Source: a bacterium (GTDB lineage Bacteria; CAIWAD01). Taken from it: a DNA stretch of 32,926 bases. Positions 6,887 to 32,818 of this stretch are shown piece by piece. Each line of letters starts with the position of its first letter. Positions within the stretch are counted from its first letter, which is position 1. Location of the stretch: assembly GCA_030685015.1 (NCBI GenBank), contig JAUXWS010000088.1, positions 1 to 32,926 on the forward strand. The letters are read 5' to 3'. The position numbers and the translations under genes are program-made. The notes under the pieces are model-generated. The model had not been told where the DNA came from and searched no databases. It saw only the letters and a program-made list of their open reading frames with translations.

Positions 6887-8607
6887 GTGCGACGCCCGCC
6901 ATCCAGGCGCCCGCCCTCCTTGCCCTGGAAGGGGTCGCGCCCGGGCGGGGCGCCCGCCGCAGGCGGGAGAAAGCCTTCCCGGCGCTCGCGCTGGCGGAGC
7001 CGGCTGCCCTGAAACGGGAGCCGGTCATCCCGCTGGCCAGTGGCCGGGAGGGGGCCGCTTCCCGCCCGTGGCCACTCGGGACCTCGATCTCTGCCGGGGT
7101 GCTGGCCGCCGACCCGCCGGCGGCCGGGCCGCGTCCAGGCATGGGTGGACAGGCGGGGGCCGCGCGGGCGCACGCACGCCCGGCGACGCCGCAAGGCAGC
7201 GAGTCGAGCCAGGTCCTCCTCCCCGTTGCCCCCATGCCAGCCCGGGAGGACTCCACCGCCTACCCGGCGGCGGCTGCCGGAAGATCGAGTCCTGCCAGGA
7301 GGCCGGCCGCCTCGTCGGCGGTCGCCCGGCAGGCACCTGTCCTGCCGATGGGGCAGAAAGCGGTCCTTCCATCGCCGACCGCCCTGCCGCCACCTGCCGA
7401 ATCCGCAGGATCGGAGCCGGCCGCCCGGCCCACGCCCGGTGCGCCGATGGGACCCGGCGCGGCCGCCGTCCTGAGCCCCCCACCCGCACCCCGGGCGGGT
7501 CGGGAGGAGGGGACAGGACGGGAGGAGGGCACCCGGACCGCCCGCGGCGTGCCAAATGCGGGTGGGCGGCCCCTGCCCATGGCGCGGACCCTGCCCGCCA
7601 ACGCCGCTGCGCGTCTCTCCCCAACGGCCGGCAATCCAGCCAGGCCCATCCCGCTACGGGCACAGAACCGCCCGATTGAGTCTGGAGGCGAGGCGGCTCC
7701 GCCGGCGCCGTCCCCCGCCGCCAATCCAGGGGAAGACACCCGCACGGTGGCCCTGCTGCGCTTCGAGCAGAGCGCCCAGCGGCCCACCCGGCCCGCGGGG
7801 GAGCAGGTGCCAGGAACTGGCATGCCGGGAAGGGGCACGTCGGGAGAGGACGCCGAAGGAAAAACCGAGCGGCCCGCGGCCGTGCGCCTGCTGGCCGAGT
7901 GGCGCGCCGCCCTGGCCGGCGGGAGCTTGGGCCGCCGCGCCACGGGCCGGGCCACGGTAGAGACGAAGGCCGTGGACGGATCCAGCCCGGCGGGCCCGGC
8001 CCAAGCTGCGGCCTCCCTCCCGTGCGCGGAAAGCGCGGACGGCTTGCCCATCATCCAGCTTTCTGCTGGGCTTCTCTGGCTGGCCCGCGCCGAGGCGGCC
8101 CGGCCCGCCGCGGCCGGCCTCCCCCCGGCCCCGCTTGATCCCAAACTGCTTCTGGAGCAACTGCACGGCCGCCTGGAGCGCTTGGCGCTGACCGAAGGGG
8201 GCAGGGCGGAACTGGTCCTGGAGCCGGCCCGCCTGGGCCGGCTGACCCTGCGGCTGGAACGGGATGGCGCCGGCTGGCGGCTGGAGATCCACAGCAGTCT
8301 GGAGAGCACGGCCCGTGAATTGCACAGACAGGCGCAGGATTTGCGCGACAGCCTGGCCGGGGCGGGCCTTCGCCTGGACGAGCTGCGCCTGACGACCGAG
8401 GCCGGCCCCGCGCGGCACACGCCTGGTGAAGCTGGACGGGAGAGTGGGGCAGGCGCCTGGCATGAGGGCGACGACCCGGATCAGCGGGAGCGGGCCAGGC
8501 GGGAGGAGCGGGAGGAATCGGCAAGGTCGGCGGGTGGGGCGGAACATTTTGCCAACCGCCTGGAACGACTTCTCCACGTAAGCGGAGGGAAGGGAGCACG
8601 GCCATGA
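6883..8607 (+). CDS. fliK: Flagellar hook-length control protein FliK
   Basis: FliK (574 residues) is the exported ruler that measures hook length and switches the export gate to late substrates. The first 400 or so residues are low complexity, rich in Ala, Pro, Gly and Arg, as expected for an extended ruler. The conserved C-terminal hook-length domain is near residues 420-510, including LVLEPARLGRLTLRLERDG and the helix TARELHRQAQDLRDSLAGAG. It starts at GTG 6883 with a GTGA overlap to the upstream gene, and ends with an ATGA overlap to flgD. It is longer than Salmonella FliK (405 residues), matching the long hook protein encoded nearby. Confidence 0.93.
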   Translation: MSATPAIQAPALLALEGVAPGRGARRRREKAFPALALAEPAALKREPVIPLASGREGAASRPWPLGTSISAGVLAADPPAAGPRPGMGGQAGAARAHARPATPQGSESSQVLLPVAPMPAREDSTAYPAAAAGRSSPARRPAASSAVARQAPVLPMGQKAVLPSPTALPPPAESAGSEPAARPTPGAPMGPGAAAVLSPPPAPRAGREEGTGREEGTRTARGVPNAGGRPLPMARTLPANAAARLSPTAGNPARPIPLRAQNRPIESGGEAAPPAPSPAANPGEDTRTVALLRFEQSAQRPTRPAGEQVPGTGMPGRGTSGEDAEGKTERPAAVRLLAEWRAALAGGSLGRRATGRATVETKAVDGSSPAGPAQAAASLPCAESADGLPIIQLSAGLLWLARAEAARPAAAGLPPAPLDPKLLLEQLHGRLERLALTEGGRAELVLEPARLGRLTLRLERDGAGWRLEIHSSLESTARELHRQAQDLRDSLAGAGLRLDELRLTTEAGPARHTPGEAGRESGAGAWHEGDDPDQRERARREEREESARSAGGAEHFANRLERLLHVSGGKGARP

Positions 8608-9329
8608 ACAGCATCTCGGGCGTGGGTGGCAGCAGCCTGCAAGGAAGCCAGGTGGCCTCTTCGGCGGCGGAACTGGGTCGACAGGACTTCCTCAACCTGC
8701 TGGTCACCCAGCTGGCCAATCAGGATCCGCTCAACCCCATGGACAACCAGCAGTTCGCTGCCCAGTTGGCCCAGTTCAGCAGCCTCGAGCAGATGACCAA
8801 CATCCAGCAGACCCTGCAGCTGGGCCTGGCCGCCGACGCAGCCCTGGCCGGCGCCCTGCAGGGCGGCATGGCGGCCGAGCTGATCGGCCACCGCGTCACG
8901 GTGGTGGACAACCGCCTGGCCCTGGACGCCAGCGGCGCCGACCTGCGCTGGGAGGCCGAGCGCACCCCCGCCAGCCTCACGGTGGCCATCACCAACGAGC
9001 TGGGCGTCAAGGTCCACGAATTCACGATCGAGCCCTCCGCCGACGGCCACTACTCCTGGGATGGCCGGGGCGCCGGCGGGCAGCGCCTGCCCGAAGGCAC
9101 CTACACGGTGGCTTATGTGGCCCGGGACGCGGCCGGGGCCTCCATGGCGGTGCGCGCCCTTTGGCAGGGACGGATCGACACCGTCCGCTTCCGCGAGGGC
9201 ATTCCCTGGCTGGTGGGCGACGGGCTGGAGTTCAGCCTGGCGCAGGTGAGCGAGGTCAGCCGCGAGGCGGCCTCCGACGACGGGGGCGGATCGGCCGCCC
9301 GCGCCCTGGACATCCAAATCAACTGGTGA
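8604..9329 (+). CDS. flgD: Flagellar hook cap protein FlgD
   Basis: FlgD (241 residues) is the scaffold that caps the growing hook and is required for FlgE polymerisation. The N-terminal FlgD signature is present (LGRQDFLNLLVTQLANQDPL, then QQFAAQLAQFSSLEQM). The C-terminal FlgD Ig-like and Tudor-like domains follow, with DGHYSWDGRGAGGQRLPEGT. The ATG at 8604 overlaps the fliK stop by four bases, and flgE follows after 22 bases, the usual ruler-cap-hook order. Confidence 0.96.
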   Translation: MNSISGVGGSSLQGSQVASSAAELGRQDFLNLLVTQLANQDPLNPMDNQQFAAQLAQFSSLEQMTNIQQTLQLGLAADAALAGALQGGMAAELIGHRVTVVDNRLALDASGADLRWEAERTPASLTVAITNELGVKVHEFTIEPSADGHYSWDGRGAGGQRLPEGTYTVAYVARDAAGASMAVRALWQGRIDTVRFREGIPWLVGDGLEFSLAQVSEVSREAASDDGGGSAARALDIQINW

Positions 9330-9351
9330 ACGCGAGCAAGGAGACCACAGG

Positions 9352-11265
9352 ATGAACCGCTCCCTCTACACGGGCATTTCCGGCCTGCTGGGCCATCAAC
9401 AGAAGCTGGACGTGGTGGGCAACAACATTGCCAACGCCAGCACCGTGGGCTTCAAGCGCAGCCGCGTCAATTTCCAGGACGCCTTCTCCCAGACCCTGCG
9501 CAACGCCTCGGAACCCACCGGCACGGCCAGTGGCCGCGTCCCCATGCAGGTCGGGCTGGGGGTCCGCGTCGCCTCCATCGACCGCATCTTCGAGCAGGGC
9601 AACCTCGAGCTGACGGGGACGACCACCGACTTGGCCATTTACGGCGACGGCTTCTTTGTCGTGCAGGACGGCTCCGGCACCTACTACACGCGCAACGGCG
9701 CCTTCCAGGTCAACCAACTGGGGGCCCTCGTCACAGCGGACGGGCAGGCCGTGCTCGGCCTCAATGCCGATGCGGGCGGCAACCTGCCCGCCATCACCGA
9801 GCTGGGGGCCATCGTCCTGCCCCTGGACCAGGTCTCGGCCGCCCAGGCCACCACCGAGGTCGCCCTGCGTCACAACCTGGGCTCCGGCATGACCACTTCG
9901 CGCGCCACCCTGGCCAGCCTGGCCAACAGCGCCGGCGTCACCGGCGTCTCCGGCAACGCCGCCAACGGGCTGGGCGGCACCTGGAACGTGACGGTGACCG
10001 GCGCCGCCGCCACCCAGAGCAGGCTCCGCGGCAGCAACGCCGCCTTCCCCGGCGCCCTCACCTCGGCCATGACCCTGGGCAGCCTGGGCGTCACCCAGTT
10101 CGGCACGGTCAACGTCAGCGTGGACAACGGCGCGCCGGTGGCCATCACCGGTTTCGACGCCGAGACCACCCTCAGCGAGTTCATGGCCCTCATCGAGTCG
10201 CAAGTGGCGGGCGTGGACATCACCCTGGACAGCGGCGAGCTGGTCGTGGCGCGCACCCACTTCGGCTCCGGCGCCACCTACCGCGTCAACCTGACGGAAT
10301 CCGGTTCCAACGCCCTGGCCCGCCTCTTCGGTGCCGCCACCGTCAACGCCACCAACGGCACCAGTTCCACGCTGGCCGCCAGCGGCGCCTTCACCACCAG
10401 CCGTGGCCAGGTGCTGGCCCCCGTCGCCCTGGCGCTGGGCGAGGTGGACCCCACCAACGGCCGCGTGACGGAGGTGCTGGACCTGGGCGGTGGCGGCGTG
10501 AGCGTGCTGGCCGCCAACGGCCTCAGTGCCGGTGCCTTCAGAGTGGACACGGAGGACACGGTCCACGAGACCAGCATCATCGTCTACGACAGCCTGGGCG
10601 CGCCCCACACCATGGGCCTCAGCTTCACCCGCGGCGTGGATCCCAACTCCTGGCACTGGGAGGCGACCCTGCCTCCCCCCGCCAACACCATGTCGGGCAA
10701 CCGCGGCATGGTCCGCTTCACCGAGAGCGATGGCAGCCTGGCCTCCTTCACCTATGACAATGGAGCCAACGCCCTCAGCTTCGATCCCGGCAACGGCGCC
10801 GTCGTCCAGCTGACCTTCGACGCCGGCTCGGTGGGCGGCCTGGACGGCCTGACCCAGATGGCGGGAAGCACCACCCTGCTTGCCACCGGCCAGAACGGCC
10901 GGCCCATGGGCACCCTCAGCACGGTGGACTTCCTGGACGACGGGCGCATCCAGGGCACCTACAGCAACGGCGACGCCCGCACCCTGGCCCAGGTCCTGGT
11001 GGCGGAGTTCACCAACCCGCAGGGGCTCAAGGCGGCGGGCGGGGCCAATTTCAGCTCGACGGGCTCCAGTGGACTGGCCCGTCTGGGCCAACCCGGCACC
11101 CAACTGGAAAGCGTGGTCAAGAGCGGCTATCTGGAGATGTCCAACACCGACCTGAGCAAGGAACTGACCGAGATGATCCTGGCCCAGCGGGGTTTCCAGG
11201 CGGCGGCGCGCGTGATCAGCACCAGCGACACCATCCTGGGCGAGGTGATCCAGCTCAAGCGTTGA
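9352..11265 (+). CDS. flgE: Flagellar hook protein FlgE
   Basis: FlgE (637 residues) polymerises into the extracellular hook. The N-terminal rod/hook motif is LYTGISGLLGHQQKLDVVGN (about 4-23) followed by NIANASTVGFKRSR. The C-terminal motif is YLEMSNTDLSKELTEMILAQ with RGFQAAARVISTSDTIL, which forms the inner tube. The centre (about residues 170-480) is rich in Ala, Thr, Gly and Ser and is the variable outer D2/D3 region. It is much longer than Salmonella FlgE (403), as in several other phyla. The start uses AGGAG upstream of ATG 9352. The gene order matches flgD-flgE operons. Confidence 0.96.
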   Translation: MNRSLYTGISGLLGHQQKLDVVGNNIANASTVGFKRSRVNFQDAFSQTLRNASEPTGTASGRVPMQVGLGVRVASIDRIFEQGNLELTGTTTDLAIYGDGFFVVQDGSGTYYTRNGAFQVNQLGALVTADGQAVLGLNADAGGNLPAITELGAIVLPLDQVSAAQATTEVALRHNLGSGMTTSRATLASLANSAGVTGVSGNAANGLGGTWNVTVTGAAATQSRLRGSNAAFPGALTSAMTLGSLGVTQFGTVNVSVDNGAPVAITGFDAETTLSEFMALIESQVAGVDITLDSGELVVARTHFGSGATYRVNLTESGSNALARLFGAATVNATNGTSSTLAASGAFTTSRGQVLAPVALALGEVDPTNGRVTEVLDLGGGGVSVLAANGLSAGAFRVDTEDTVHETSIIVYDSLGAPHTMGLSFTRGVDPNSWHWEATLPPPANTMSGNRGMVRFTESDGSLASFTYDNGANALSFDPGNGAVVQLTFDAGSVGGLDGLTQMAGSTTLLATGQNGRPMGTLSTVDFLDDGRIQGTYSNGDARTLAQVLVAEFTNPQGLKAAGGANFSSTGSSGLARLGQPGTQLESVVKSGYLEMSNTDLSKELTEMILAQRGFQAAARVISTSDTILGEVIQLKR

Positions 11266-27774: not shown

Positions 27775-27798
27775 GGGGTTCCGGTCTCCCGGAACCCC
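27775..27798 (-). terminator. Intrinsic terminator of the former tRNA-Arg gene
   Basis: A perfect 10-bp stem (27775-27784 with 27789-27798) and a 4-base loop lie 12 bases after the tRNA-Arg 3' end on the minus strand, followed by TTCTCC. The position directly behind the tRNA 3' part suggests it is the original chromosomal terminator, marking the side that belongs to the host chromosome. Confidence 0.7.
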
Positions 27799-27810
27799 AT
27801 GATCCTCAAG

Positions 27811-27852
27811 TGCACCCAGGAGGAGTCGAACCCCCAACCTTCTGATCCGTAG
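27811..27852 (-). other. 3' part of tRNA-Arg(ACG): integration-site remnant (att)
   Basis: On the minus strand, CTACGGA is an anticodon loop with anticodon ACG. TCAGA and AGG/TT follow, then the T-arm GGGGG-TTCGACT-CCTCC region and the acceptor 3' strand TGGGTGC with discriminator A. CCA is not encoded, as in the tRNA-Gly gene here. The 5' half is missing: upstream bases cannot form the anticodon stem, D-arm or acceptor. A tRNA 3' half beside an integrase is the hallmark of tRNA-targeted integration. The intact tRNA should be at the other end of the element, to the right of the window. Confidence 0.85.
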
Positions 27853-28058
27853 TTTATGTTACCCGAAAACCGGCTGTTTTCATAGCACGGCATGGAATGG
27901 CATGGCGTGGCAGAAAAGCATGAATATCAAAGAGATACGATACGGATTGAGTCCCGAGCCACTTTACATATCGCCTCGCGTTGGCAACATTTGGCGGGGG
28001 TTCACGGCGACCGGACGGCGACCGAAATGGCCCCCCTAACCTTCTGATGAGGCGTTAA
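27853..28058. promoter_or_regulatory. Integrase leader with possible arm-type sites
   Basis: This 206-base AT-richer stretch lies between the att remnant and the integrase. It has closely spaced copies of GGCATGG (near 27889-27912) and two copies of GGCGACCG (near 28008-28022). At 28038-28048 is AACCTTCTGAT preceded by a C-run, a partial repeat of the tRNA-derived att sequence at 27836-27846. These are candidates for recombinase or excisionase binding sites; none is proven. Confidence 0.4.
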
Positions 28059-29228
28059 ATGGCTAGGATTCGATTCACGCAGAAGCTGCTGGACGAGCTG
28101 ACGACCACCAAATCCAGGGACTGGTTCTACGATGAGCAGGTCCCTCTCCTGGCCCTGATGGTGACGGCCAAAGGGGCCAAATCCTTCTATGCTATCAAGA
28201 CCAAGGATGGGGTGAAGCGGCATGTGCGCATCGGCCCATACCCTGAGGTTCCGATTCCAATGGCCAGAAGAATGGCCTCTGATCTCATCCTCAAGATGAT
28301 CACTGGCGAGCCAGTTGGAGAGGAATTGAAGCAGCGTGAGCGGGCGGCAGCATTCTCGTTAGAGGACGCCTACAACGAGTACTGTGCCTATCTGCAACGA
28401 CACCGCAAGCCCGGCACCATCTACCAGTACCGGATGCAGTGGGAGCGCTTCTTGAAGGACTGGTCTGGACATCGAGCACTTCGCTCCATTCGACGGCGAG
28501 AAGTCGTCGACCTCCACCAACAGATTGGTGACTACCATGGCCACCATCAGGCCAACCGAGTGATTGCCCTGCTGCGCGCCGTCTTCAACCGTGCCATTCG
28601 CGAGCACGAGATGGACATTGCCAACCCTGCCATGGCGATCACCTTCTACCGTGAGAACAAGCGGTCCCGCCGACTCACACCCGAGGAGCTTCCTGCCTTC
28701 TTCAAGTCAGTGGATGAGGAGCCCAACCGGGACGTCCGTGACTTCGTCCTGCTGTCCCTGTTCACGGGTGCCAGGAAGTCCAACATGCTGGGCATGCGGT
28801 GGAAGGACATTTCAATGGATCTTGGGCTGTGGCAGATTCCTTCCAGCGAATCCAAGAACAGCAAGGAGCTGGATGTCATCCTCTCATCTGTGGCGATGAA
28901 GATCCTGCGCGAACGGATGGAGTTAGCCACAGGCGAGTTTGTCTTTCCCGGACGCAACGGGCGCAGCAACGAGCACATGCGAGAGCCTAAGTTTGGGTGG
29001 CTGCGGATCTGCAAACGCGCTGGATTGAAAGATCTGCATCTGCACGATTTGCGCCGCAGCCTGGCCTCCTTCCAGATCGATACAGGTACCCCACTGGAGG
29101 TGATCCAAAAGACGCTGGGGCATGAGTCCAAGGTGACGACGGAGATCTACGCGCGCCTGGCTCTGGAGCCGGTGCGGGCCAGCGTGGAGCGGGCGACGGA
29201 GGAGATGCTGCGGCGGGCGAGGGGTTAG
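28059..29228 (+). CDS. Tyrosine recombinase (phage-type integrase)
   Basis: This 389-residue integrase should catalyse insertion and excision of the element at tRNA-Arg. An N-terminal arm-binding-like domain (about 1-90, with KGAKSFYAIKTKDGVKRHVR) resembles those of P4-type integrases. A SAM-like core-binding domain spans about 95-200. The catalytic domain has Arg 239 (TGARKSN), the His-x-x-Arg pair H329/R332 (HDLRRSLASF), His 355 (LGHES) and the nucleophile Tyr 364 (TEIYARL). All catalytic residues are present, so it is probably functional. Codon use is less GC-biased than the flagellar genes, in line with transfer. Confidence 0.95.
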   Translation: MARIRFTQKLLDELTTTKSRDWFYDEQVPLLALMVTAKGAKSFYAIKTKDGVKRHVRIGPYPEVPIPMARRMASDLILKMITGEPVGEELKQRERAAAFSLEDAYNEYCAYLQRHRKPGTIYQYRMQWERFLKDWSGHRALRSIRRREVVDLHQQIGDYHGHHQANRVIALLRAVFNRAIREHEMDIANPAMAITFYRENKRSRRLTPEELPAFFKSVDEEPNRDVRDFVLLSLFTGARKSNMLGMRWKDISMDLGLWQIPSSESKNSKELDVILSSVAMKILRERMELATGEFVFPGRNGRSNEHMREPKFGWLRICKRAGLKDLHLHDLRRSLASFQIDTGTPLEVIQKTLGHESKVTTEIYARLALEPVRASVERATEEMLRRARG

Positions 29229-29483: not shown

Positions 29484-30712
29484 ATGAAGCACGCACTTTA
29501 CCTTCTTGCCCTGAGCGCGATCGCCAGTCAGCCGACCCTGGCCGCGCCACCGCTGCCGGTCACCGATCTACAGATCCAGTTGGTGGACTCGGTCCACATC
29601 CAGTTGAACTGGTCGCCGGTGAGCCAGGACACCCTGGGCAATCCCCTCGACTGCGTCTACTACGATGTACACCAGAGCCAGACGCCGAACTTCCTCCCCT
29701 CGGAAGCCACCTGGATCGACAGCACCTCCACCACCACACTGACCGATTCATTGGCTGGCGAGCTGGGCTTCTACAGGGTCCAGGTCCAGTCCTGTGTGGA
29801 ATCCTTTCCCCACGACATTGTGCGCATCCCCGCCGGCCAGTTCATGATGGGCCAGGCGGGCGTGGCCACGCCCGAGCACGAGGTCACCTTGACCAACGAC
29901 TTCCTGCTGGGCCGCACAGAAGTGACCAATGCCCAGTACCTGGAGGCCTTGAACTGGGCCAAAGCGCAGGGTCTGGTCTCCGTGGGGGGGGATTATGTGC
30001 AGCAGTACAATGTGAACCTGCTGCGCATCAATCAGAGCGGCTTTGATCGCTATGAGATCCGCTACAACGCTGGCACGCAGCAGTTCTATCTGCATGCCGG
30101 AACCTATGATGCTGGAAGCTGGGGTCCGGGTGAGGCCTACCCCGGCGGCAATTACGACCCAGCGAACCACCCCGTGAAGTCCGTGTCCTGGTACGGCGCG
30201 GCCTGCTACTGCGACTGGCGCAGCCAGATGGAGAACCTGCCCCGCTATTACGAAGGCCAATGGGGCCAAATTCCCAACCCCCGCAATCCCTACACTGCCA
30301 CGGGCTACCGCCTGCCCACCGAGGCGGAATGGGAATTCGCCGCCCAACACGACGACGAACGCACCTATCCCTGGGGACCCACATCGCCCACCTGCACGCT
30401 GGCCAACTTCTACAACAGCAGTTACTACTGCGTGGGTTGGACCAGCCCGGTGGGGGCGCATCCGGCGGGTGCGTCCAGCTTGGGCTTGCAGGACATGGCG
30501 GGGAATGTGTGGGAGTGGTGCAACGACTGGTACACGAGCTACAGCGCGGGGGCGGTGTCGGATCCGCCGGGTCCAGCCAGCGGCTCCAGCCGTGTCGTGC
30601 GGGGCGGCAGTTGGGTCCACGGCGCGGCCGGCCTGCCATGCGCCCTTCGCCTCTTCAACGCCCCGGCACGCGCTACCTCCACGGCTTCCGTCTCTGCAGG
30701 ACCCTCCCTTAA
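29484..30712 (+). CDS. Exported FGE-sulfatase-domain protein, probable DGR target, frameshifted near the 3' end
   Basis: A signal peptide (about 1-21) is followed by a fibronectin-III-like domain (22-110) and a formylglycine-generating-enzyme/C-type-lectin-fold domain from about 112. Motifs are IPAGQFMMG, GRTEVTNAQYLEAL, HPVKSVSWYGAACYCDW, YRLPTEAEWEFAA, GLQDMAGNVWEWCNDWY and VVRGGSW. The catalytic Cys pair of true FGE is absent, so it is more likely a binding protein. After residue 393 or so (near 30662) the frame breaks. The expected family ending GTRYLHGFRLCRTLP and stop at 30710-30712 lie in another frame, as if one C were lost from a C-run. Unshifted, translation runs to 30821. The C-terminus matches DGR variable regions. 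Confidence 0.85.
30598..30712 (+). other. Candidate DGR variable region (VR)
   Basis: This segment codes the C-terminal end of the lectin-fold domain, from VVRGGSW to GFRLCRTLP. Between the fixed ends, the positions that are usually Asn in this family are GTC, CAC, GGC, GCC, GGC, CTT, CTC, TTC, AAC, GCC, GGC, TAC, CTC and CAC. Thirteen of fourteen end in C, with varied first and second bases, which is what adenine mutagenesis of AAC codons gives. High genomic GC at third positions also favours C, so this is supportive, not proof. The template repeat needed to confirm it is not in the window. Confidence 0.65.
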
Positions 30713-30722
30713 CCCTATGAAC

Positions 30723-30738
30723 TTTTACCCTTTTACCC
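30723..30738 (+). repeat. Tandem TTTTACCC pair after the VR
   Basis: Two adjacent copies of the 8-mer TTTTACCC (30723-30730, 30731-30738) lie between the candidate variable region and the inverted repeat. It is a small low-GC tract in GC-rich DNA; function unknown. Confidence 0.6.
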
Positions 30739-30746
30739 TTTGGAGA

Positions 30747-30805
30747 GCATGTTTCCGTCCCGCCCGCCCCGAGCGAAGCGGGGGCGAGGTGGGATGGAAA
30801 CATGC
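30747..30805 (+). repeat. 59-bp inverted repeat (cruciform/hairpin) after the VR
   Basis: The arms GCATGTTTCC and GGAAACATGC are perfect. Pairing continues through TCCC, CC and GCCCC with two G-T pairs, one mismatch and one bulge. The apex reads GCGAAGC, a sequence known to form a very stable DNA mini-hairpin. It lies 35 bases after the restored stop of the target gene. DGR target sites commonly have a hairpin/cruciform just after the variable region that aids retrohoming. It could alternatively be a terminator, though no T-run follows. Confidence 0.85.
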
Positions 30806-30820
30806 CGGTGGCATAGCCTG

Positions 30821-31156
30821 ATGCCGGTGAGGATTTTCACCCTTTCGTTTGATGCAGAACGCGAGTTGTTCCAGGAGGAGGATTTGAACCGTTTCTGCGC
30901 CACGCGCAGCGTGACGCAGAAACGGGCCGAGTTTTTCGCCTGGAAAGGCAAGGCCTGGTGGACGGTGTGGGTGGAGTACGACGAGGCCGTACAGGGCGAG
31001 GCGCTGCCGGAAGGGCTGGACGCCGAGCAGACGGCCACCTACCAGCGCCTGCGCGAATGGCGCTTCGGCGTGGCGGAGAAACAGGGCTTGCCCGCCTGCG
31101 TGGTGGCCGCCAACCGCAAGCAAGCCGAGCAAGCGCTGCGATATGCTAGTGGTTGA
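30821..31156 (+). CDS. DGR accessory protein of the HRDC type, C-terminally truncated
   Basis: This 111-residue protein begins MPVRIFTLSFDAE. It has an N-terminal region typical of DGR HRDC accessory proteins (LNRFCATRSVTQKRAEFFAW; AWWTVWVEYDEA), then the first half of an HRDC domain (YQRLREWRFGVAEKQGLPAC, VVAANRKQAEQAL). It stops at RYASG, where the domain should continue with about 35-40 more residues including a Gly-x-Gly turn. HRDC proteins replace Avd as the accessory in one class of DGR. An in-frame ATG at 30740 would read through the inverted repeat and is unlikely. A GTG at 30827 is an alternative start. The abrupt end suggests a deletion or insertion at about 31140-31160. Confidence 0.75.
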   Translation: MPVRIFTLSFDAERELFQEEDLNRFCATRSVTQKRAEFFAWKGKAWWTVWVEYDEAVQGEALPEGLDAEQTATYQRLREWRFGVAEKQGLPACVVAANRKQAEQALRYASG

Positions 31157-31763: not shown

Positions 31764-32468
31764 ATGCTGCCCACCAAACGCACTGACGCCCTCACCCCCT
31801 CTTCCCTCTCCGACTACCTGACCCTGGCTGCCCGGGAGCCGGTCTTGCCGCCGTCCCTGGGCGATTTCCTGGCCTTGCTGGCAAATGTCAAGGCCGATCC
31901 CGTCCCCGCCGTCCGGGCGCTGGCCGCGGTCATCCGCCATCTGCAGGCGGATCCGCCGGAGGGGCCCAGCATCCGCCTCTGGCTGCTGGTCGCCTACGCG
32001 CCCGCCCTGCAGGCCCTGGCCGTCCGCTACCGCACGCCCGGGGCGACCCTGGATGAATCCGCCAGCGCCGCGGTCTGGGCCTTCCTGGAGACGCTGCAGG
32101 CCATGAGCGTGGAGCGGCTGGCCAGCCCCTGGCTGGCCCGGGAGATCGAGCGGGACACCAAGGATCGGCTGCGCGTGGTGGTGGGTGCGCGCGATTACCA
32201 GCAGGATGCCCGAAGGGCGGAGCGCCCAGACGAGGCGCTGATGGAGGACCGGGTCCGGGACGAGCGGACGGACGCCTACCAAGCGCTGGAGGATTTGATC
32301 CAGGACATGCCGGTGACCGAGGCGGAGCGCACGCTGCTTTCTGGTCTCTACGTGTACGGCTACACACTGCGGGAGATGGCCGACATGGCCGGGGAGGCTT
32401 ACAACACGGTCCAGAAGCGCTTCTACCGATTGATGCGCCGCCTGGAAAATTCGAGGAGATTTCGCTGA
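31764..32468 (+). CDS. Sigma-70-like transcription factor
   Basis: This 234-residue protein has the layout of a divergent sigma-70/ECF-like factor. A helical region near residues 70-135 (SIRLWLLVAYAPALQALAVR; SAAVWAFLETLQAMSVERLA) resembles region 2. A clear region-4-type helix-turn-helix lies at about 185-228 (TEAERTLLSGLYVYGYTLRE, then NTVQKRFYRLMRRLE). It could direct transcription of the element's own genes, or be a non-sigma HTH regulator; no anti-sigma factor is adjacent. It starts at ATG 31764, and the next gene follows after 59 bases on the same strand. Confidence 0.6.
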   Translation: MLPTKRTDALTPSSLSDYLTLAAREPVLPPSLGDFLALLANVKADPVPAVRALAAVIRHLQADPPEGPSIRLWLLVAYAPALQALAVRYRTPGATLDESASAAVWAFLETLQAMSVERLASPWLAREIERDTKDRLRVVVGARDYQQDARRAERPDEALMEDRVRDERTDAYQALEDLIQDMPVTEAERTLLSGLYVYGYTLREMADMAGEAYNTVQKRFYRLMRRLENSRRFR

Positions 32469-32527
32469 CCCTGTCCGATTCCGGCCATCTCGCCGCCCCA
32501 TTAGTGGGAAAGACGAGGAGCCCCCGC

Positions 32528-32818
32528 ATGGCCGGAATCAAGGACAGCATCATGACCGAACCCAAGGCGAGTCCCGCCGAGGACCGCGTGCGCCAGGCCT
32601 TCCTGCGCCTGGCGCTGCAAGTGGGCGGCGCCGCCGCCGAGCACCCCATCCCCGACGAGGCCGTCTTCACGCTGTGCCGCTGCGTGGATGGCGCCTTCCA
32701 TGATTGCCTGGACGCCCTGCGCGATCCGGCAGGCGCGCCCACCCGCCCGCCGGCCCTCAACCTGCGGCGGCACCCGGCCGTCGTGCATCTCCTGTCCATC
32801 ATCCAGCAGAAGCAGTAA
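32528..32818 (+). CDS. Small protein of unknown function
   Basis: This 96-residue protein begins MAGIKDSIMTEPK, with GAGGAG at 32514-32519 as ribosome binding site. A second ATG at 32552 is an alternative start. It is mainly helical, with a VFTLCRCVDGAFHDCLDALR stretch containing three Cys, and ends HLLSIIQQKQ. I recognise no family. It lies between the sigma-like gene and the gene at 32841, all on one strand and close together, so it is probably co-transcribed with them. Confidence 0.65.
   Translation: MAGIKDSIMTEPKASPAEDRVRQAFLRLALQVGGAAAEHPIPDEAVFTLCRCVDGAFHDCLDALRDPAGAPTRPPALNLRRHPAVVHLLSIIQQKQ

Follow-up and report, generated by a model that had tools for sequence, protein, structure and literature searches.

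A gene cassette in an integrative element as the probable remote target of a diversity-generating retroelement

The contig JAUXWS010000088.1 (assembly GCA_030685015.1, GTDB lineage CAIWAD01) carries, in close succession, a gene for a putatively exported protein of the FGE/C-type-lectin fold, an inverted repeat and an HRDC-like open reading frame, an arrangement that recalls a diversity-generating retroelement (DGR). Is this the remainder of such a retroelement or a target that is diversified from elsewhere in the genome? A sequence-only reading had placed a decayed or orphan DGR here and had offered two explanations, truncation of the retroelement or a remote target served by a distant reverse transcriptase (RT). 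We analyzed the contig at its full length of 32,926 nucleotides (the window, which is the entire contig C88) within the 3.61-Mb genome of 105 contigs. In our assessment, positions 29484-30805 very probably constitute a remote target cassette of a DGR that resides on contig C86. The features of the region are the following:

27790-27853, minus strand: tRNA-Arg gene, 3' half, with about 19 bp more, a probable remnant of the left attachment site (88% to tRNA-Arg(acg) on C7)
28059-29228, plus strand: tyrosine integrase (Pfam Phage_integrase, E=4e-26; PHROG integrase, E=3e-62)
29484-30821, plus strand: DGR target gene for an exported FGE/C-type-lectin-fold protein
30580-30704, plus strand: variable repeat (VR), compared with the template repeat (TR) at C86:8957-9085
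30683-30703, plus strand: IMH-like 3' end of the VR, GGCTTCCGTCTCTGCAGGACC
30710-30746, plus strand: pyrimidine-rich spacer TAACCCT...ACCCTTT between VR and hairpin
30747-30805, plus strand: retrohoming hairpin/cruciform with a GAGCGAAGC core
30821-31156, plus strand: HRDC accessory gene of the DGR, copied in truncated form (111 aa)
31121-31151, no strand: right-hand border at which DGR-derived sequence gives way to element backbone (homology to C86 ends at 31121, homology to the C58 element starts at 31151)
31764-32468, plus strand: sigma-factor-like backbone gene (NCBIfam sigma70-ECF, E=2e-9, just below the cut-off; homologues on C7, C58 and C100)
32504-32818, plus strand: backbone open reading frame (C7, C58 and C100 carry homologues in matching order)

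The target gene and its template

The open reading frame at 29484-30821 encodes 445 amino acids with an N-terminus that, by eye, resembles a signal peptide. A profile search assigned the protein to Pfam FGE-sulfatase (E=1e-43), and it matches 2y3c, a solved DGR variable protein from Treponema denticola, with E=3e-16. The exported target of FGE/C-type-lectin fold that had been proposed earlier is thus real. A second target encoded on C52 shares 85% amino acid identity with it, and a collection of viral sequences yielded just two FGE relatives, both distant (40%).

Neither an RT nor a TR was found on the whole of C88, as the sequence-only reading had noted, and the locus is accordingly not a self-sufficient DGR. 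Both were found on C86, including the template of roughly 100 bp, matching except at A positions, that had been expected elsewhere in the genome. With the VR-HRDC region as a DNA query, two stretches of C86 were retrieved, one of 394 bp at 95% identity that comprises a hairpin and an HRDC gene, and one of 129 bp at 76% that represents the TR. Of the 37 TR adenines that align with window positions 30580-30704, 26 have been replaced (by G in 12 cases, by T and by C in 7 each), as against a single one of 88 other bases (Fisher p = 4e-17). The variable-looking C-terminus perceived earlier is therefore a genuine VR. The sole non-adenine change, C to G near the 3' end, lies within the IMH/IMH* site and also separates TR and VR of a second DGR on C67, as IMH*/IMH would predict. 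All other non-adenine bases equal those of the TR, though the gene upstream has diverged from its sister by about 15%.

Five FGE paralogues (on C90, C59, C28, C41 and C57) served as controls. Compared with the TR, they differ at 25 to 34 of 87 to 91 non-adenine positions and lack the adenine bias, which rules out ordinary or chance FGE paralogy. In a scan of the genome, the TR core with adenines masked occurs only on C86, C52 and C88, and the reversed pattern, used as a control, nowhere.

On C86 the order is hairpin-HRDC-Avd-RT-TR, the TR of 129 bp overlapping the 3' end of the RT reading frame. That frame (L030, 8953-10077) runs through the TR, i.e. the A-rich template also encodes a glutamine-rich tail of the RT. 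Among six RT matches in the whole genome, the one on C86 (P0001) fits the PHROG RT family with E=4e-104 and contains YMDD and PIGNLTSQ, in agreement with YxDD and IGxxxSQ, which we take to be motifs of DGR RTs. Avd (104.4 bits, cut-off 80) and an intact HRDC (72.1 bits, cut-off 23.8) are encoded next to it. Taken with the window, C86 thus exhibits the adenine pattern between TR and VR, an RT of the DGR type and adjacent Avd and HRDC genes. The VR-HRDC-Avd-RT-TR order is common to loci of other bacteria (L036, L040, L041, L043, L044 and others). As TR and RT reside on C86 and the VR differs from the TR at adenines, the locus cannot be called an orphan DGR or a truncated one; the best description is a VR without RT or TR nearby that is served in trans. 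Of the two earlier explanations the remote target is supported; the headline of a decayed or orphan DGR is not.

Further RTs on C31, C25 and C15 resemble, by eye, those of group II introns, lie at unrelated loci and were set aside; the sixth (L001, C82:3474-4097) is situated within an open frame of about 900 amino acids. The second complete DGR, on C67 (L031), consists of VR 8040-8176, HRDC 8320-8835, RT 9099-10229 and TR 10146-10281, with changes at 18 of 29 adenines and 6 of 107 other positions. Here, the VR contains an additional base and the target likewise reads out of frame. This second DGR is ruled out as the donor of the window VR because its TR mismatches the latter at many non-adenine sites.

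The homing site and the HRDC copy

The end of the VR reads CAGGACC as in the other VRs and as opposed to CAGCACC in the TRs. Within two mismatches, GGCTTCCGTCTCTGCAGGACC occurs in the genome only in both DGR TRs, in their VRs and in one gene on C105. The latter (L173, 1587-2110) is an AT-rich FGE gene in a GC-rich genome that contains an in-frame stop, has an IMH-like end and appears to be the decayed target of a different DGR.

The inverted repeat that had been recognized downstream of the target is well founded. Its arms (30747-30764 and 30788-30805) form a strand fold of -27.9 kcal/mol with DNA parameters, as against -14.0 +/- 2.3 for shuffled sequences (z=-6.0). The GAGCGAAGC core is restricted to the window, C86 and the region 3' of the C67 VR, where the outer stem differs in sequence and retains its pairing. 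Among 7-mers in the 140 bp downstream of 56 related VRs (L036-L115), ACCCTTT (16 cases) and GCGAAGC (15) rank first and second, counts that are not independent because the loci are related to one another; GCGAAGC follows TRs in only 2 cases. In phage BPP-1, IMH and hairpin suffice to target a foreign gene, and pairing of the stem is required while its sequence is not (PMC3240598). The re-paired outer stem on C67 and the 7-mers following the VRs agree with these rules. The window thus retains both IMH and downstream hairpin.

If the BPP-1 scheme applies, RT and Avd would reverse-transcribe RNA of the TR on C86, introducing random bases at adenine positions, and the resulting cDNA would replace the window VR in trans, guided to its site by IMH and hairpin. 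Such homing would alter the binding face of the exported C-type-lectin-fold protein.

The third element, described earlier as an HRDC accessory gene, stands as an HRDC-derived reading frame and falls as a complete gene. It corresponds at 90% identity to the N-terminal 134 residues of the intact HRDC on C86, with 95% nucleotide identity over 30728-31121 and divergence thereafter. The copy breaks off at 31112-31121, and most of the HRDC domain is gone: 29 of 68 HRDC positions are matched, compared with 67 of 68 in the C86 protein, and as it is cut short the frame scores 16.5 bits, below the Pfam cut-off of 23.8 bits. Judged by these features it is a shortened duplicate of the C86 gene and does not qualify as a working accessory gene. 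Its start is likely ATG 30821; TTG 30740 lies just 5' of the hairpin. Truncated HRDC copies beside remote targets found no clear parallel in 20 genomes with related DGRs, where extra HRDC copies do exist. In three genomes of the same genus or the same family (G001-G003) no HRDC of the DGR type was found, the matches being limited to the HRDC domain within long, RecQ-like frames; these genomes thus offer no orthologous locus for comparison.

The integrative element and the donor locus

The cassette is embedded in sequence of an integrative element. On the left, positions 27790-27853 align at 88% identity with part of C7, namely the 3' half of an intact tRNA-Arg(acg) and the bases that follow it; in the window, ARAGORN found no complete tRNA at this place. 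The adjacent integrase has homologues on C7 (70% amino acid identity) and C100 (59%). The integrative element assumed by the sequence-only reading is hence apparent at its left side, where tRNA half and integrase are found; its right end lies past the contig edge. C7 and C100 repeat this succession of integrase and backbone, and C58 shares the backbone, whose nucleotide identities to these three are 69-80%; for the reading frame at 32504-32818 no family match was obtained. This layout argues that both flanks on C88 belong together, without settling which VR was assembled between them. Counting the window, at least four related integrative elements reside in the genome (the others being L158 on C58, L159 on C7 and L161 on C100), with cargo that differs beside the integrase/backbone boundary.

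On C7, the slot between integrase and backbone is occupied by a Bro-N/PDC-S13-type gene and a nuclease, and on C58 an IS110 transposase and a CAP12/TIR gene are found past the same boundary. From these family matches we infer that the DGR target sits in a cargo slot that is elsewhere filled by defence-like genes.

The origin of the cassette points to C52 and C86. C52 contains a gene for a subtilisin-like (S8) protease-FGE fusion (L032, 280-3354) that ends in a VR of the C86 TR, with 9 non-adenine changes and no clear hairpin downstream. It is followed by the second FGE target, which is cut by the contig end. C52 and C86 probably form one DGR locus, of which the window would contain a second copy of the last target, the hairpin and the 5' part of HRDC. 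Presumably the cassette arose by duplication of this portion (target, hairpin and 5' part of HRDC) into the element. A PemK/MazF-like toxin gene region is also duplicated near DGR parts, with 98% identity between L032 1-344 and L030 8154-7811.

Identity between the two copies is mosaic. It amounts to about 85% 5' of 30183; from there a single mismatch occurs in the 167 positions up to 30349, and further 3' there are 4 mismatches in 260 positions over 30728-30987 and then 14 in 134 to 31121. The near-identical tract around the VR suggests later recombination or gene conversion and makes it hard to assign the assembled VR to one locus.

Frame shift, competing explanations and related systems

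Relative to the TR, the window VR has a net deletion of four bases between 30665 and 30666. Owing to their absence the target is out of frame after about 30665, including the GFRLCRTLP C-terminal strand, and its reading frame extends to 30821; in frame, it would stop at the TAA at 30710-30712. The VR is thus not in frame with its gene, which would lower the prospects of a functional protein at present and does not count against the status of a DGR target. We surveyed 62 TR/VR pairs from other genomes and found net frame-shifting gaps in six. Five of them (L052, L069, L070, L093 and L113) reside inside the VR as indels of 1-2 bases, which in every case coincide with or adjoin adenine-rich AAC codons; in L056 the gap falls beyond the VR end. 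With 5 of 62 pairs, a frame-shifted VR appears to be a recurring minority state, for which assembly error in hypervariable sequence is also possible. The four-base deletion is presumably a homing error, and since the TR itself is in frame, the reading frame should be regained at a further homing event. The frame shift may therefore be a reversible off-state; terminal decay is possible, too.

Decay is central to another explanation, namely that copying from the DGR locus took place once the VR there had been diversified, and that the cassette has since lost homing and is now carried along as a dead passenger. Two signs of damage, the truncated HRDC copy and the frame-shifted VR, would then reflect ordinary decay, and the near-identical tract 30183-30987 could be a single copied block. 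We consider this unlikely, if well worth keeping in mind, as IMH, spacer and hairpin are intact, as frame-shifted VRs recur in other DGRs and as the non-adenine bases of the window VR are free of drift in contrast to the 9 such changes in the hairpin-less VR on C52.

The contig ends raise a different concern. C52 and C86 break off within sequence that is identical to C88, 53 and 54 bases after it begins, as expected if the assembler collapsed 30297-30781, and this counts against the preferred reading in that the assembled VR may belong to the C52-C86 locus. Carried further, the whole segment of VR and hairpin would stem from that locus and would have been joined into C88 by repeat collapse. 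Such a chimera is improbable. Diverged DGR homology continues on both sides (29536-30182, about 85% to C52; 30988-31121, about 90% to C86), so target gene and HRDC copy are present here anyway, and the slot lies between integrase and backbone, as it does on C7 and C100.

Similarly slim is the chance that a whole DGR once stood in the window and was then truncated, with loss of RT and TR. The HRDC copy does end at 31112-31121, where Avd and RT would come next, but there is no trace of Avd, RT or TR before the backbone restarts at 31151, and the VR matches the C86 TR and was accordingly written by the C86 DGR or copied from its locus. With nothing to indicate that a complete retroelement ever stood here, the earlier suggestion of truncation is not sustained. 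FGE paralogues are common in the genome, but the idea that an ordinary one merely adjoins a fortuitous inverted repeat and an HRDC-like frame of other origin deserves practically no credence, for paralogues do not exhibit the adenine-only difference and hairpin core and IMH are confined to DGR-related sites.

As a remote target of the C86 DGR, the cassette joins known cases. Remote target genes have been described for the HRDC-DGR of Treponema denticola (PMC4891356), which shares with the present system the FGE/C-type-lectin-fold targets, the HRDC accessory gene and the location of some targets far from the core locus; 2y3c from this organism is the closest solved DGR protein. In T. denticola, HRDC is situated between TR and RT and overlaps RT (PMC4891356), whereas the order here is HRDC-Avd-RT-TR, and the window differs further in that a truncated HRDC copy accompanies the target inside an integrative element. 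In Thiohalocapsa PB-PSB1, remote VRs are diversified in trans and duplication has been linked to mobile elements (PMC10907252). There as here, VRs match a distant TR at non-adenine sites, and DGR parts have been duplicated within the genome in connection with mobile elements, with truncated leftovers. Transposons are implicated in PB-PSB1, while an integrase-bearing element carries the cassette in the window; activity in PB-PSB1 was proven by read variation (PMC10907252), whereas the window target is known from its assembled sequence. The window has in common with BPP-1 an IMH-bearing VR and, downstream of it, a hairpin in which pairing of the stem counts for more than its sequence. Stems of the BPP-1 type comprise 7-10 bp with GRNA loops and lie 4-34 bp after the VR (PMC3240598); in the window the outer stem has about 18 bp around the GAGCGAAGC core, the hairpin starts about 42 bp after the VR and the target is remote.

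Remote DGR targets as such are therefore already known, and the window feature is of the same kind as those in T. denticola and PB-PSB1. What sets it apart is that it occupies a cargo slot in a tRNA-associated integrative element, that a truncated copy of HRDC accompanies the target and that the VR is frame-shifted. Surveys of metagenomes that require a VR beside the RT overlook remote targets (PMC8144416). The present one, on another contig and in a mobile element, is recognizable by IMH, TAACCCT...ACCCTTT spacer and GCGAAGC hairpin, a signature that offers a way to find more. The frame-shifted VRs in the window and in 5 of 62 related pairs pose the question of whether they are a reversible switch operated by homing errors or short-lived failures. 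Tentatively, and with more doubt than confidence, one may imagine target cassettes (gene, VR, IMH and hairpin) as cargo of integrative elements that uses any compatible RT/TR of the host, with homing indels at adenine codons toggling the frame, reversibly so because the TR itself remains in frame.

Outside this genome, the RT that matches most closely belongs to the DGR of Go_SlDig_bin_48 (L036). This DGR shares the succession of VR, downstream GCGAAGC motif, HRDC, Avd, RT and TR, and differs in being a single compact locus with only one HRDC match in its genome. Its TR overlaps the 3' end of the RT reading frame in the same way as on C86.
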